Source: a virus. From it: 25,137 bases of DNA. Position 1 is the first letter of the stretch. Each line of letters starts with the position of its first letter. Both the position numbers and the translations under genes were made by a program. The notes below the pieces were generated by a model. That model ran no database searches and was not told where the DNA came from. It saw only the letters and a program-made list of their open reading frames with translations. The DNA lies in IMG/VR virus record IMGVR_UViG_3300044841_000069, positions 1 to 25,137 of that record, one strand, 5' to 3'. Below are positions 4,544-17,611 of the stretch, piece by piece.

Positions 4544-5752
4544 TCAGATGGGGTCAGAATTGTGACGGATTGTGACAACTCGCGACAAACTCTGCGCCGC
4601 AGCCCGCAACGCCTCGGGCTGCGACTTCACGTAGGTCCGCATCGTGAAAGACGAATCGGCATGCCCAAGCCACGCCGCCACTACCCCGATCGGCACGCCC
4701 TGGAGGTGCATCGTCGTCGCGCAGGTGTGCCGGGCATCGTGCAGCCTGATGTGCGGCACGCCTGCCTTGGCAACAGCCTTTGTCCACATCTTGGTCAGCG
4801 TGTCGGGGTGGTACGGCTCACCAGCCTCGTTGCATACCACGTAGCCCAGATCGGCGTAGGCCGCGCCCAGCGCCAGCTTCTCCGCGGCCTGGCGCCGCTT
4901 GGCCGCCTTCAGTTCTGCCAGCAGGCCATCGGGTATCGGCAGCGGCCGGCTGGAGCTCGCCGACTTCGTGACGCCCTCCTGGTCGATCGCCTTGCCGTTC
5001 GCGCTGACCCGGGTGTCGGCGATCTGCAGCGTCTTGGCCTTCAGGTCGATGTGCGCCCACTTCAGCCCGCCGATCTCGCCGCGCCGCAGCCCGGTCAATG
5101 CCAGATGCCAGGCGTGCCGATCGCGGTCGTCAGCGAGACTGTCGAGGACTGCTGCGACCTGCTCGGGCTCGTAGGTCTCGAACTTCGTCGGCTTCCCGGG
5201 CACCCGATCGACGTGGCGAGCAACGTTGCGCGCCAGATCACCCTCGGCGACGAGTTGCTCGAGCACCTGTGACAGCGTGCCCAGCATCAGGTTGCAGTAG
5301 CGCGCGCTCCATGGCTTGCGCTTCTTCCCGCCTGGCCGCAGCACGTCGCCGTCGCGGAGCCGGCGCACCAGAGTGTCGATGTCCTTGCGTGTGAGTTTCT
5401 GCACCGGAACCTCGCCGAGCTCGGAGCGCACCGGCTGCAGTGCGTCGCGATAGCCGCTGCGGGTGGTGGGCTCGATGCCGTGCCGCGACAGCAGCCAATC
5501 GGCGCACGCCTGCTCGACCGTCAGTGTCGTCGGGTGCACATAGGTGCGGCCCGAGACCTGGCCGCGCACCTCGTCGAGAACCCTCCGCGCCTCGGCCTCG
5601 GTCGAGTAGCGCTTGCGCATTCGCTTGCGCTTCCCGTCGACCTCGCCGACGTCGACCGTCAACTGGTAGCGCACCACCGGTCGGCCGCCCTTGCGCGCGG
5701 CGAGTTCGATGCGTTTGATCTGTGGGGGCAACTGTCGGCGAGCCTCGGCCAT
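4544..5752 (-). CDS. int: Tyrosine integrase
   Basis: A 402-aa site-specific recombinase that would join attP to the host tRNA site. Domains in order: an N-terminal arm-binding region (about 1-70, with basic KRKRMRKRY), a SAM-like core-binding domain (about 75-185), and a catalytic domain. The catalytic set is complete: R223 (TGLRRGEIGGLKW), K263 (TKSASSSR), H338 and R341 (RLHDARHT), H364 (WLGHA) and Y374 (MRTYV). Its 3' end lies 33 bases from the attP core and contains the right-hand TTGTGAC repeats. The start ATG has no clear ribosome site. It reads leftward, opposite to the early genes, so it is probably expressed separately from a promoter in 5836-5864. Confidence 0.95.
   Translation of the reverse strand: MAEARRQLPPQIKRIELAARKGGRPVVRYQLTVDVGEVDGKRKRMRKRYSTEAEARRVLDEVRGQVSGRTYVHPTTLTVEQACADWLLSRHGIEPTTRSGYRDALQPVRSELGEVPVQKLTRKDIDTLVRRLRDGDVLRPGGKKRKPWSARYCNLMLGTLSQVLEQLVAEGDLARNVARHVDRVPGKPTKFETYEPEQVAAVLDSLADDRDRHAWHLALTGLRRGEIGGLKWAHIDLKAKTLQIADTRVSANGKAIDQEGVTKSASSSRPLPIPDGLLAELKAAKRRQAAEKLALGAAYADLGYVVCNEAGEPYHPDTLTKMWTKAVAKAGVPHIRLHDARHTCATTMHLQGVPIGVVAAWLGHADSSFTMRTYVKSQPEALRAAAQSLSRVVTIRHNSDPI
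4560..4584 (+). repeat. Right arm-type repeats of attP, inside the 3' end of int
   Basis: TTGTGACGGA at 4560 and TTGTGACAACTCGCG at 4570 are direct copies 10 bp apart, in the same orientation as the pair at 4341-4366. They encode part of the integrase C-terminus, so the sequence serves as both coding and probable integrase-binding DNA. Confidence 0.55.
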
Positions 5753-12435: not shown

Positions 12436-13250
12436 CGCTCATTACACACCCAGACCTGCTGCAGGGAACAGACGAGTGGATGGACCAGCGGCGCGGGATC
12501 GTGACGGCGTCAGTGGTGGGCCAACTCATCTCCACGCGCAAGCTCGGCGCGGGTGACTACGACTGCCCGGACTGCGAAGCACCTGCGCTCGAGCCCTGCC
12601 GCAGCAAGACCAAAAAGGGCGCAGTGATCAAGACGTTTCACTCTGAACGTGTCGACGTCGCAAGGCGTTCGCCCTCGCCGGTCGTCGTCGAGGTTGCACG
12701 CAATGACACGTCTCAGGGGCTCACAACGCTACTCGCGGCCGAGCGCATCACGGGATGGACGGAACCGACCTACATCAGCGACGACATGATGCGGGGTATC
12801 GCTGACGAACCGATCGCCCGTGACAAGTACTCGGAGCACTACGCGCCGGTCAAGGAATGTGGGTTCATCACAGAGGACCGCTGGGGATTCCAGATCGGTT
12901 ACTCCCCAGACGGTTTGGTGGGCGACGACGGGCTGATCGAGATCAAGTCGCGTCGGCCCAAGACGCAGTTGGCGACCATCCTGGCTGGTGAGGTGCCGAT
13001 CGAGAACATGGCCCAACTGCAGTGCGGCTTGCTAGTCACTGGCCGCGAGTGGATCGACTACGTGAGCTGGTGTGGCGGCATGCCTATGTACGTCAAACGG
13101 GTTCTACCACAGCAGAAGTGGTTCGACGCGATCACCGAGGCAGCCGCGACGTTCGAGAAGAACGTCGCGGAAATGATCAGCGCCTATGGGCAGTACGTCA
13201 CTGGGCTGCAACCAACCGAACGCACCACCGAGACTGAAATGGTCGTCTGA
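12432..13250 (+). CDS. YqaJ/RecE-like exonuclease with inserted putative zinc finger
   Basis: A 272-aa nuclease of the PD-(D/E)XK YqaJ/lambda-exonuclease type, which would trim double-stranded ends during phage recombination. Start: WMDQRRGIVTASVVGQLI (residues 16-33). Catalytic core: E126 (ADEPIARDKY), D160 (YSPDGLVG) and E170-x-K172 (LIEIKSRR). Between these lies an unusual insertion, residues about 42-80, with C45-x2-C48-x7-C56-x13-H70, matching the CPxC...PCR...FHxxR finger common in actinobacterial phage proteins. The next gene is its likely recombination partner. ATG 12432 overlaps the previous stop. Confidence 0.82.
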   Translation: MTLITHPDLLQGTDEWMDQRRGIVTASVVGQLISTRKLGAGDYDCPDCEAPALEPCRSKTKKGAVIKTFHSERVDVARRSPSPVVVEVARNDTSQGLTTLLAAERITGWTEPTYISDDMMRGIADEPIARDKYSEHYAPVKECGFITEDRWGFQIGYSPDGLVGDDGLIEIKSRRPKTQLATILAGEVPIENMAQLQCGLLVTGREWIDYVSWCGGMPMYVKRVLPQQKWFDAITEAAATFEKNVAEMISAYGQYVTGLQPTERTTETEMVV

Positions 13251-13251
13251 C

Positions 13252-13908
13252 ATGGACATAACCGAAACACTCACCCCGAAGAGCGACCAACTAAACGCCG
13301 AGGACCTGCTCACCGGCTCACGCACCGTCACGGTCGAGAAGGTGACCAAGGGGTCCGTCGAGCAGCCGGTCGACATTCACCTGGTCGAGTTTCCCGGCCG
13401 ACCCTTCCGGCCATCCAAGACGTCGCGGCGCCTACTCGTCGCGGCCTGGGGTGCTGAGGCGTCGGCCTACACCGGTCACCGGATGACGCTGTACCGCGAC
13501 CCCGAGATCAAGTTCGGCGCCGAAAAGGTCGGTGGGATACGCATCTCGCATCTCTCTCACATCGACAAGCCGCTGACCATTTCTCTGACGGAGACGCGGG
13601 GCAAGAGGAAGCCGCACCGCATCGAACCGTTGCCCGACGCACCGGCCACCACCCCCGACCGGCTCGGCATCGGCGCACTCTTCGACAAGGGCGGCCTACC
13701 GAAGGATCGCAGCGACGACCGGATGATCGTGACGCGCAAGATCATCGGCCGTGACGTGGCTGCGTATGCCGACCTCAGCACCGCCGATGTCGACGCGTTG
13801 CAGGTGCAGCTCACGACGTGGGATCTTGGCGGTGAGTTGGTCGACAAACTGAGTGAAATCTTGGACATGGCCGCGATCCAGGCCGAGTCCGAGGGTGGTG
13901 AGAAGTGA
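13252..13908 (+). CDS. Probable recombination partner of the exonuclease, unknown fold
   Basis: A 218-aa protein starting one base after the exonuclease stop. The N-terminal 150 residues are beta-rich and basic (SRTVTVEKVTKGS, YRDPEIKFGAEKVGGIRISH, LTISLTETRGKRKPHR); the C-terminal third is helical and acidic. The position, immediately after a RecE/YqaJ-type nuclease, is where phages keep the single-strand annealing or DNA-binding partner (RecT/Beta/Erf). I see no RecT or Erf signature, so this role is inference. Confidence 0.6.
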   Translation: MDITETLTPKSDQLNAEDLLTGSRTVTVEKVTKGSVEQPVDIHLVEFPGRPFRPSKTSRRLLVAAWGAEASAYTGHRMTLYRDPEIKFGAEKVGGIRISHLSHIDKPLTISLTETRGKRKPHRIEPLPDAPATTPDRLGIGALFDKGGLPKDRSDDRMIVTRKIIGRDVAAYADLSTADVDALQVQLTTWDLGGELVDKLSEILDMAAIQAESEGGEK

Positions 13909-16428: not shown

Positions 16429-17385
16429 ATGGCTCGATCGACCGGTAAAGACCACGCCCGCATCAACCTCGATATCTGGGGCGACGAGGACTGGCTCGAC
16501 CTCACCCCACCCGCTCAGCACCTCTATTTCGTGCTCTGGACGAGCCCTCAGTTGTCCTACTGCGGCACAGGCGATTGGCGGCCGGCGAAGATCGCCGCGA
16601 AGGCCAAGGGATGGACGCCGGCACAAGTCGAAGCCGCCGCCGCCGAGTTGTCCGAGCGGCTGTTTCTGCTCATCGACACCGACACCGAGGAGTTCATTCT
16701 CCGGTCCTGGATGAAGCACGACGGGCTGTGGCGCACACCGAACATGGCCGTATCCATGGCCAACGCCCGCGCCGATCTAGCCTCCCGAGCACTCCGTGGC
16801 GTGGTGGTTTTCGAGGTGCTGAAGATCAAGAAGCGAGAGCCGAAATCGACATCATGGGAACGCGATGCAGTGGCTTCGATGCTCACCCAATCGGCCGTGA
16901 ACCCGGTTGAACTGGAGCCGTTTAACCCTTGGGCTAACGGTGGCGCTAAGGGTGGGCCTAAGGGTGGCGCTAACCCTTGGGTTAAGGGTGGGCCCAACGG
17001 TGGCGGAACTATGGAACCTAACCCCACCGCTAACGGTGGGTCCAACGGTGGCGCTACTCCTACTCCTGCTCCTACTCCTACCTCCATTCTCCAAGGGGGT
17101 CACCAAAATCCGGAAGGTCACCAGGGCGCCGAGCACGACCCGAACACCCCCCCACCAAGATTTTGCTCTGAGCATCCGACCGGCACGGGGAAGCCGTGCC
17201 GCGCCTGCGGCGCTGCCGGCGACGGGCACAAGGCATGGACCGCGGCACGCGCCGAGTCACGCCTCCGCGAACTCGCCGACTGTCCCAGCTGCGACCCCAA
17301 GGGCTGGCTGCTCAACGACGACGGCACGCCAGCCGATCACCAAACCCGCTGCCCCGCCCACGACTGGGAGACAACCCATGCCTAG
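16429..17385 (+). CDS. Replication-initiator-like protein with internal repeat array
   Basis: A 318-aa protein. Residues 1-140 form a winged-helix-like domain (INLDIWGDEDWLDLTPPAQH, later WTPAQVEAAAAELSERLFLL, RSWMKHDGLWRTPNM), as in phage replication initiators with DnaD/HTH-type N-termini. Residues about 169-225 are a low-complexity stretch of [N/K]-G-G-[A/P] tetrapeptides, then Thr/Pro. The C-terminus has CSEHPTGTGKPCRACGA and CPSCDPKG...CPAHD, probably one or two zinc sites that may contact a helicase or loader. The internal repeats may act as origin iterons, as in lambda O. Function is inferred from build and position. Confidence 0.68.
   Translation: MARSTGKDHARINLDIWGDEDWLDLTPPAQHLYFVLWTSPQLSYCGTGDWRPAKIAAKAKGWTPAQVEAAAAELSERLFLLIDTDTEEFILRSWMKHDGLWRTPNMAVSMANARADLASRALRGVVVFEVLKIKKREPKSTSWERDAVASMLTQSAVNPVELEPFNPWANGGAKGGPKGGANPWVKGGPNGGGTMEPNPTANGGSNGGATPTPAPTPTSILQGGHQNPEGHQGAEHDPNTPPPRFCSEHPTGTGKPCRACGAAGDGHKAWTAARAESRLRELADCPSCDPKGWLLNDDGTPADHQTRCPAHDWETTHA
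16935..17054 (+). repeat. In-phase 12-bp repeat array inside the initiator-like gene; candidate origin
   Basis: Consensus [T/C]AA[C/G]GGTGG[C/G]nn. Good copies start at 16935, 16947, 16959, 16983, 16995, 17031 and 17043, all on an exact 12-base register; the positions at 16971, 17007 and 17019 are degenerate. TAACCC-TT-GGGTTA (16971-16984) is a perfect inverted repeat within it. Because 12 bases is four codons, the array also writes the GG tetrapeptides. It could be an iteron origin or only a protein repeat. Confidence 0.6.
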
Positions 17386-17611
17386 CGACTCCCACCTCGA
17401 CGAGAACGGCTTCGTCGTCCTCGACAACCTCGACAGTTCCGGCATCGCGCCGCACTCCCACCGCGCCCAGATCGCGGCCTGTGCCCTGTGCGACGTGGAT
17501 GGTTACCGCGGCTCGACCATCTGCGATCACGTCGACCACCGCGAGGCGGCCCGGCGCGGCATGGAGCTCGTTCGGGCTGAGATTGCCAAGGCCAAGGGGG
17601 GCAAGTCGTGA
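17378..17611 (+). CDS. Small Cys/His protein, 77 aa
   Basis: ATG 17378 lies eight bases inside the end of the initiator-like gene. The centre has CALCDVDGYRGSTICDHVDH, a compact Cys/His cluster likely to bind zinc, followed by a basic helix (REAARRGMELVRAEIAKAKG). Function unknown. Confidence 0.6.
   Translation: MPSDSHLDENGFVVLDNLDSSGIAPHSHRAQIAACALCDVDGYRGSTICDHVDHREAARRGMELVRAEIAKAKGGKS

Follow-up and report, generated by a model that had tools for sequence, protein, structure and literature searches.

A candidate replication origin of 12-bp repeats embedded in a phage replication initiator gene

The initiator gene and its repeat array

The window, i.e. the whole stretch of DNA analysed here, is a 25,137-base virus record; the features discussed below are listed in Table 1. 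In a PHROGs profile search, the 318-aa protein matched phrog_3171 'replication initiation protein' with an E-value of 6.6e-99 and over nearly its full length (residues 5-310 on positions 1-308 of the 331-position profile). A tblastn search with the initiator matched 282 phage records (E<=0.01), almost all of them from phages of Mycobacterium, Gordonia, Arthrobacter, and Rhodococcus, and the names given in these records are replication initiation protein, RepA-like replication initiator, HTH protein, and hypothetical protein. The gene encodes an N-terminal winged helix, followed by a linker coded by the repeats and a C-terminal module of zinc-binding type.

Table 1. Features of the initiator gene, the repeat array, and the adjacent tract in the window.
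Feature	Position	Strand	Basis
Phage replication initiator gene	16429-17385	+	318 aa; phrog_3171 profile match
N-terminal winged-helix domain (predicted), residues 1-165	16429-16923	+	AlphaFold2, alignment A2, BFVD matches
12-bp iteron array, 11 register positions, 10 fitting; proposed to be bound by the initiator	16921-17052	+	sequence; kept in relatives
C-type units TAACCC	cores at 16923, 16971, 17019	+	sequence
G-type units YAASGGTGGS	cores at 16935, 16947, 16959, 16983, 16995, 17031, 17043	+	sequence
Inverted repeat TAACCC-TT-GGGTTA	16971-16984	no strand	sequence
Inverted repeat CCACCG-ctaa-CGGTGG	17024-17039	no strand	sequence
Trinucleotide tract CTACTCCTACTCCTGCTCCTACTCCTAC; proposed unwinding or helicase-loading element	17054-17081	+	codon-null test; relatives
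C-terminal module, CxxH..CxxC..CxxC..C metal-ligand pattern and long helix	17113-17382	+	alignment A3; AlphaFold2 pLDDT 86; relatives classified

The N-terminal domain is the conserved part of the family, as seen in a 68-member alignment (A2). AlphaFold2 predicted it confidently (mean pLDDT 91, pTM 0.86), and the order of helices and wing in the model is that of a winged helix. Its closest structural neighbours in BFVD are predicted phage proteins, several of which are called replisome organizer. Matches to solved structures were weak and included 4pt7_B (E 0.75, prob 0.72) and 4pql_A (E 0.94), both of which we take to be entries for the N-terminal domain of pSK41 RepA. No credible match to the domain was found in Pfam or NCBIfam, and none by sequence profile in the PDB; a fold search of the PDB with the N- and C-terminal domains gave nothing below E 0.001. 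The initiator lacks the signs of an AAA+ protein.

The array sits in the middle of the gene. The motif YAASGGTGG is found seven times on the plus strand, always in the array and always at spacings that are multiples of 12, and it is otherwise absent from both strands of the 25 kb; in their longer form, YAASGGTGGS, the seven units span 16935-17052. Three TAACCC units, 48 bp apart, lie on the same 12-bp register. Among the eleven units, only that at 17005-17016 (GGAACTATGGAA) does not fit the register. The array is the top lag-12 self-match of the window, and it is likewise picked out by Tandem Repeats Finder. The original prediction, which was made from the DNA letters, had described an initiator-like gene with a winged-helix-like N-terminal domain, seven copies of a 12-bp unit on a strict 12-base register, and an inverted repeat. 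The gene is now placed by its phrog_3171 membership and the domain by its predicted fold; all seven copies were found and are non-random, and there are two inverted repeats. The limits proposed for the candidate origin, 16935-17054, are slightly too narrow, since the array starts at 16921.

The 12-bp repetition exceeds what the encoded peptide demands. When synonymous codons were redrawn from the codon usage of the phage, the expected number of copies of the unit was 0.43 on average, and it was 1.6 when the synonymous codons of the region were permuted; at least seven copies occurred in none of 20,000 draws (p 5e-5). On its own, the lag-12 identity score barely exceeded the codon-usage null (p 0.07), as the tetrapeptides of the window, xNGG and xKGG, repeat too, whereas lags 12, 24, and 48 combined gave p 0.003. 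Both the repeating tetrapeptides and the marginal lag-12 score are what would be expected if a flexible Gly/Asn/Pro-rich linker were selected at the protein level, the DNA repeat being a slippage by-product of an in-frame 12-mer. Therefore, the window alone could not settle the choice between DNA and peptide; the relatives do.

The array and the C-terminal modules in relatives

The comparison included 26 annotated relatives and 121 loci from viral and genome contigs, and the family counts are based on 91 non-redundant loci. Motif discovery by EM collapsed when unconstrained and, once the fraction of sites was fixed, yielded no more than a degenerate (A/T)ACCCC(C/T) core together with a CTN tract; therefore, the counts rest on a simple core pattern, AACCC[TC]/AAGGG[TG], which is absent from some relatives among the 91 loci. 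The core occurs at 14.8/kb in the linker versus 0.76/kb elsewhere, a 19-fold enrichment. The spacing of neighbouring cores is a multiple of 12 bp in 250 of 349 cases (72%), and in 84/91 loci the linker contains the best lag-11/12/22/24 run found anywhere in the locus; this run lies outside the linker in L072, L076, L088, L101, L123, L129, and L146.

The core is not tied to one reading frame. Its dominant codon phase is 0 in 33 loci, 2 in 27, and 1 in eight, and in two further loci it lies after the stop codon. It is read as TCT AAC CCC GGG in Mbo4, CTA ACC CCC GGT in Cheoctovirus, and GGT TTA CCC CAA in Toast, while in Tortellini the phase switches within a single gene, so that the same DNA encodes quite different peptides among relatives, contrary to what selection of the linker peptide would lead one to expect. 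The original prediction had held that DNA and protein repeats are preserved together because the period is a multiple of three. However, four relatives (L027, L145, L149, and L150) have 11-bp arrays that are out of codon register, and the array is therefore not a peptide repeat in that subgroup. Since such arrays exist, divisibility of 12 by three is not the reason for the persistence of the repeats. The pattern that had been named as fatal to the prediction, tetrapeptides kept and DNA scrambled, is the opposite of what is seen: the peptides are scrambled and the DNA is kept. The comparison of relatives thus gives good support to the original prediction.

In Arthrobacter phages with short initiators that consist of the N-terminal domain only, the array sits after the stop codon. 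Arthrobacter sp. VKM Ac-2550, EastWest, and Mufasa8 carry their arrays past the stop of a short initiator; the Mufasa8 array is overlapped, in a different frame, by a small ORF of the annotation. The cleanest case is Beans, in which about 15 units occupy a 290-bp intergenic gap (lag-12 score 50), and this array refutes peptide selection as the sole explanation. In addition, synonymous codons are more conserved in the linker than over the remainder of the gene in three groups of close relatives (identity 0.967 versus 0.824, 0.962 versus 0.770, and 0.957 versus 0.828; permutation p 0.0002-0.001), although 6 to 24 of about 280 contiguous windows of the same size, counting those that overlap the linker itself, are equally high. 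The repeats almost certainly act as a DNA element that is selected independently of the encoded peptide; selection of the peptide, with slippage as the source of the DNA repeat, is highly improbable.

The two types of unit are best understood as a single core that stands either forward or inverted in place. The sequences AACCCTT and AAGGGTT are reverse complements of each other, and reverse-complement pairs of cores are also seen in Beans (AGCCCCT/AGGGGCT) and in a Bifidobacterium megaplasmid (GATACCCCATC/GATGGGGTATC). Both orientations are present in 42/91 loci, and 78 of 111 neighbours of opposite orientation lie a multiple of 12 apart. The inverted repeats of the window thus arise because cores occur in both orientations on one register.

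The C-terminal module of the window's protein has eight invariant positions, seven of which are Cys or His (alignment A3), and no fold match was found for it. When the relatives were classified, the C-termini of the family proved to be of several unrelated, interchangeable types. The Yoshi gene (L010), compared with L009 and L025, is a mosaic: its first 600 nt are Sbash-like (73-88% identity) and the remainder is Soul22-like (91-100%), with the joint at about nt 600 of the gene (about 2095 in L010), at the end of the array. C-terminal modules are exchanged beside the array, as Yoshi shows. Both the swap in Yoshi and the diversity of C-terminal types would fit an array that is a recombination joint for these modules, or an incompatibility or copy-control locus, with the active origin elsewhere. 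A recombination role, however, predicts neither the register, the flipped cores, nor the tract, and it does not predict an array behind initiators that lack a C-terminal module; we regard this explanation as very improbable.

Two observations concern the same part of the gene. A stretch after the tract, GGTTACGTAAGTACGGAAGGTCACCAG, is conserved in relatives with a zinc-type C-terminus; its version in the window (17094-17125) is GGTCACCAAAATCCGGAAGGTCACCAG, with GGTCACC twice, and it may be an extra origin element or merely the joint of the C-terminal module. Downstream, a 77-aa gene (17378-17611, plus strand) resembles the last zinc-knuckle segment of the initiator C-termini of relatives (55% identity over 40 aa to the Tortellini initiator, E 2e-14), as if part of the zinc module had become a separate gene.

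The short-period tract beside the array

In the window, nine of the 12 tract codons are NCT, whereas 1.0 would be expected from the codon usage of the phage (p 2e-5). Many relatives have a comparable short-period tract 3' of the array, made of CTN trinucleotides in the clade of the window, CTACAT in Microbacterium, and ACTCCTTA or ACAACAG in Arthrobacter phages, where the period is 7 or 8 bp and not 3. A run with T at every third base above the locus's own background was found in only 22/91 loci. The trinucleotide tract is thus typical of the clade of the window and is not universal in that form. In Beans, Mufasa8, and EastWest, the tract is clearly AT-rich (39-43% GC versus 59-66%); in the window the difference is mild (53% versus 65%), and nearby stretches are equally low. 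The tract is somewhat more likely than otherwise to be a strand-opening site.

Its sequence recalls elements of bacterial oriC. The rule for a DnaA-trio calls for three or more NAN trinucleotides in the same strand (PMC8287927), and the complement of the window tract, beside the presumed initiator sites, reads 3'-GAN-5' nine times. Its top strand contains TnnT repeats, like the TnnT element of DnaD (PMC10201434). In contrast to oriC, no DnaA box within one mismatch was found in the window's gene or near 17054, the initiator is without AAA+ signs, and not all relatives have a period of 3. The likeness to DnaA-trio and DnaD elements is a lead, not a finding, and the use of a DnaA-trio-like opening at the tract is conceivable but rather doubtful. 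The trinucleotide tract makes the borrowing of this bacterial mechanism by a phage testable.

Across the family, perfect DnaA boxes number five in or near the linker versus five outside over about ten times the length. With one mismatch allowed, there is no enrichment near the linker, and the enrichment was dropped for that reason. In three relatives, a perfect box, TTATCCACA (at L018 2162-2170, L118 3665-3673, and L105 3612-3620), lies 3' of a tract that is CTACAT-like or ACACCTACA and is located behind the DNA-binding domain of the initiator; this suggests that host DnaA may be involved in some members of the family.

The candidate origin and known systems

The stretch 16921-17081 is very probably a phage replication origin, with repeats bound by the phage's own initiator and embedded in the initiator's gene. 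The most likely scheme is as follows. The N-terminal winged helix would bind the 12-bp units, whose cores may face either way within one register, and the bound array would build a nucleoprotein complex that opens the short-period tract at 17054-17081. The C-terminal module, tethered by the origin-coded linker, would then recruit the helicase or its loader, and the linker peptide would be a passenger. We infer each of these steps, namely binding of the array by the N-terminal domain, strand opening at the tract, the start of replication here, and the function of the C-terminus.

An array of this kind could instead be an operator at which the protein represses its own operon, or a site for partition (parS-like). 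Autoregulation is common among DNA-binding proteins that have arrays, which would favour an operator. The parS of cluster A phages also consists of short direct repeats, eight copies of 8 bp (PMC7157519). However, the array interrupts or follows the initiator gene and is not at its promoter, and no parA/parB adjoins it in the annotated relatives inspected. The distinct short-period tract on the same side, as an unwinding element would be, and a layout that matches known intragenic origins also speak against an operator or a partition site, and such a role in place of an origin is unlikely.

The best reading is an intragenic iteron origin like those of lambda O and RepA_N plasmids, in what appears to be an unrelated family. 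The lambda origin lies in the middle of O and has four iterons (six in Stx phages), next to a region rich in AT (PMC7466680). Both systems have repeats placed centrally in the initiator gene, flanked by a short tract or melting region, and in some relatives (BearBQ and Thimann) a neighbouring gene is annotated as a helicase loader, as in lambda. They differ in that the arrays here comprise roughly 7-15 units, each 12 (or 11) bp long and in either orientation, that the window has a weakly AT-rich trinucleotide tract, and that the array of some relatives is outside the gene; the initiator has no Pfam match to a phage replication O family. In pSK41 (RepA_N), the winged-HTH N-terminal domain of the 319-aa Rep binds Rep boxes that are central in rep, and the middle of the protein, which ori encodes, is a linker that can be dispensed with (PMC5703833). 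Central repeats, a (here predicted) N-terminal winged helix, and a similar length, 318 versus 319 aa, are shared with the window's protein, which differs in its C-terminal zinc-type module; none of 68 members matched RepA_N (PF06970) in Pfam at E<=0.1.

Among actinobacteriophages, the window's protein belongs over its full length to phrog_3171, the 'RepA-like replication initiator', and no description of an origin for this family was found in full-text literature searches of incomplete coverage. The same annotation is shared by RepA of the extrachromosomal cluster A mycobacteriophages Miko, Rachaly, and Jeeves, which drives replication (PMC7157519). The origin of these phages is predicted within or next to repA, and no repeats turned up in those regions that the authors examined (PMC7157519). 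Kinship to Miko RepA was rejected (best BLASTP E 0.97 over 18 residues).

The present analysis supplies a candidate origin for a large actinobacteriophage initiator family, which matched the 282 phage records. Such origins are easily overlooked, as coding sequence conceals the repeats and the frame differs between phages. They could provide laboratory mycobacteria, Gordonia, and Arthrobacter with small replicons, and nature has placed the same origin both inside and outside its initiator gene, which invites comparison. More tentatively, it is possible that actinobacteriophages share one type of origin, in which 12- or 11-bp repeats, whose cores can be inverted freely, precede a tract that resembles DnaA-trio and TnnT elements. 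The winged-helix initiator would replace DnaA at its boxes and load the host machinery on a mimic of the unwinding element, and the origin would double as a swap joint for helicase-recruiting C-terminal modules.

A GC-skew check, proposed with the original prediction, was run on the 25-kb fragment; the skew is flat, has no inflection, and is uninformative either way. On the minus strand at 4544-5752 there is an ORF judged by eye to be integrase-like, which suggests a temperate, integrating phage; therefore, the origin would probably serve lytic replication and not prophage maintenance. A YqaJ-like exonuclease gene (Pfam E 4e-12), followed by a gene that is weakly RecT-like in its C-terminal part, occupies 12441-13908; the two genes make up a recombination cassette that lies upstream of the initiator gene, at a distance of about 3 kb. 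The same layout as in the window is seen outside phage records, in a phrog_3171-type initiator of a 169-kb plasmid of Bifidobacterium longum (L154 2498-3739), whose gene holds 12-bp GATACCCCATCG/GATGGGGTATCT repeats and a 7-bp tract, hinting that this plasmid is a phage-plasmid.
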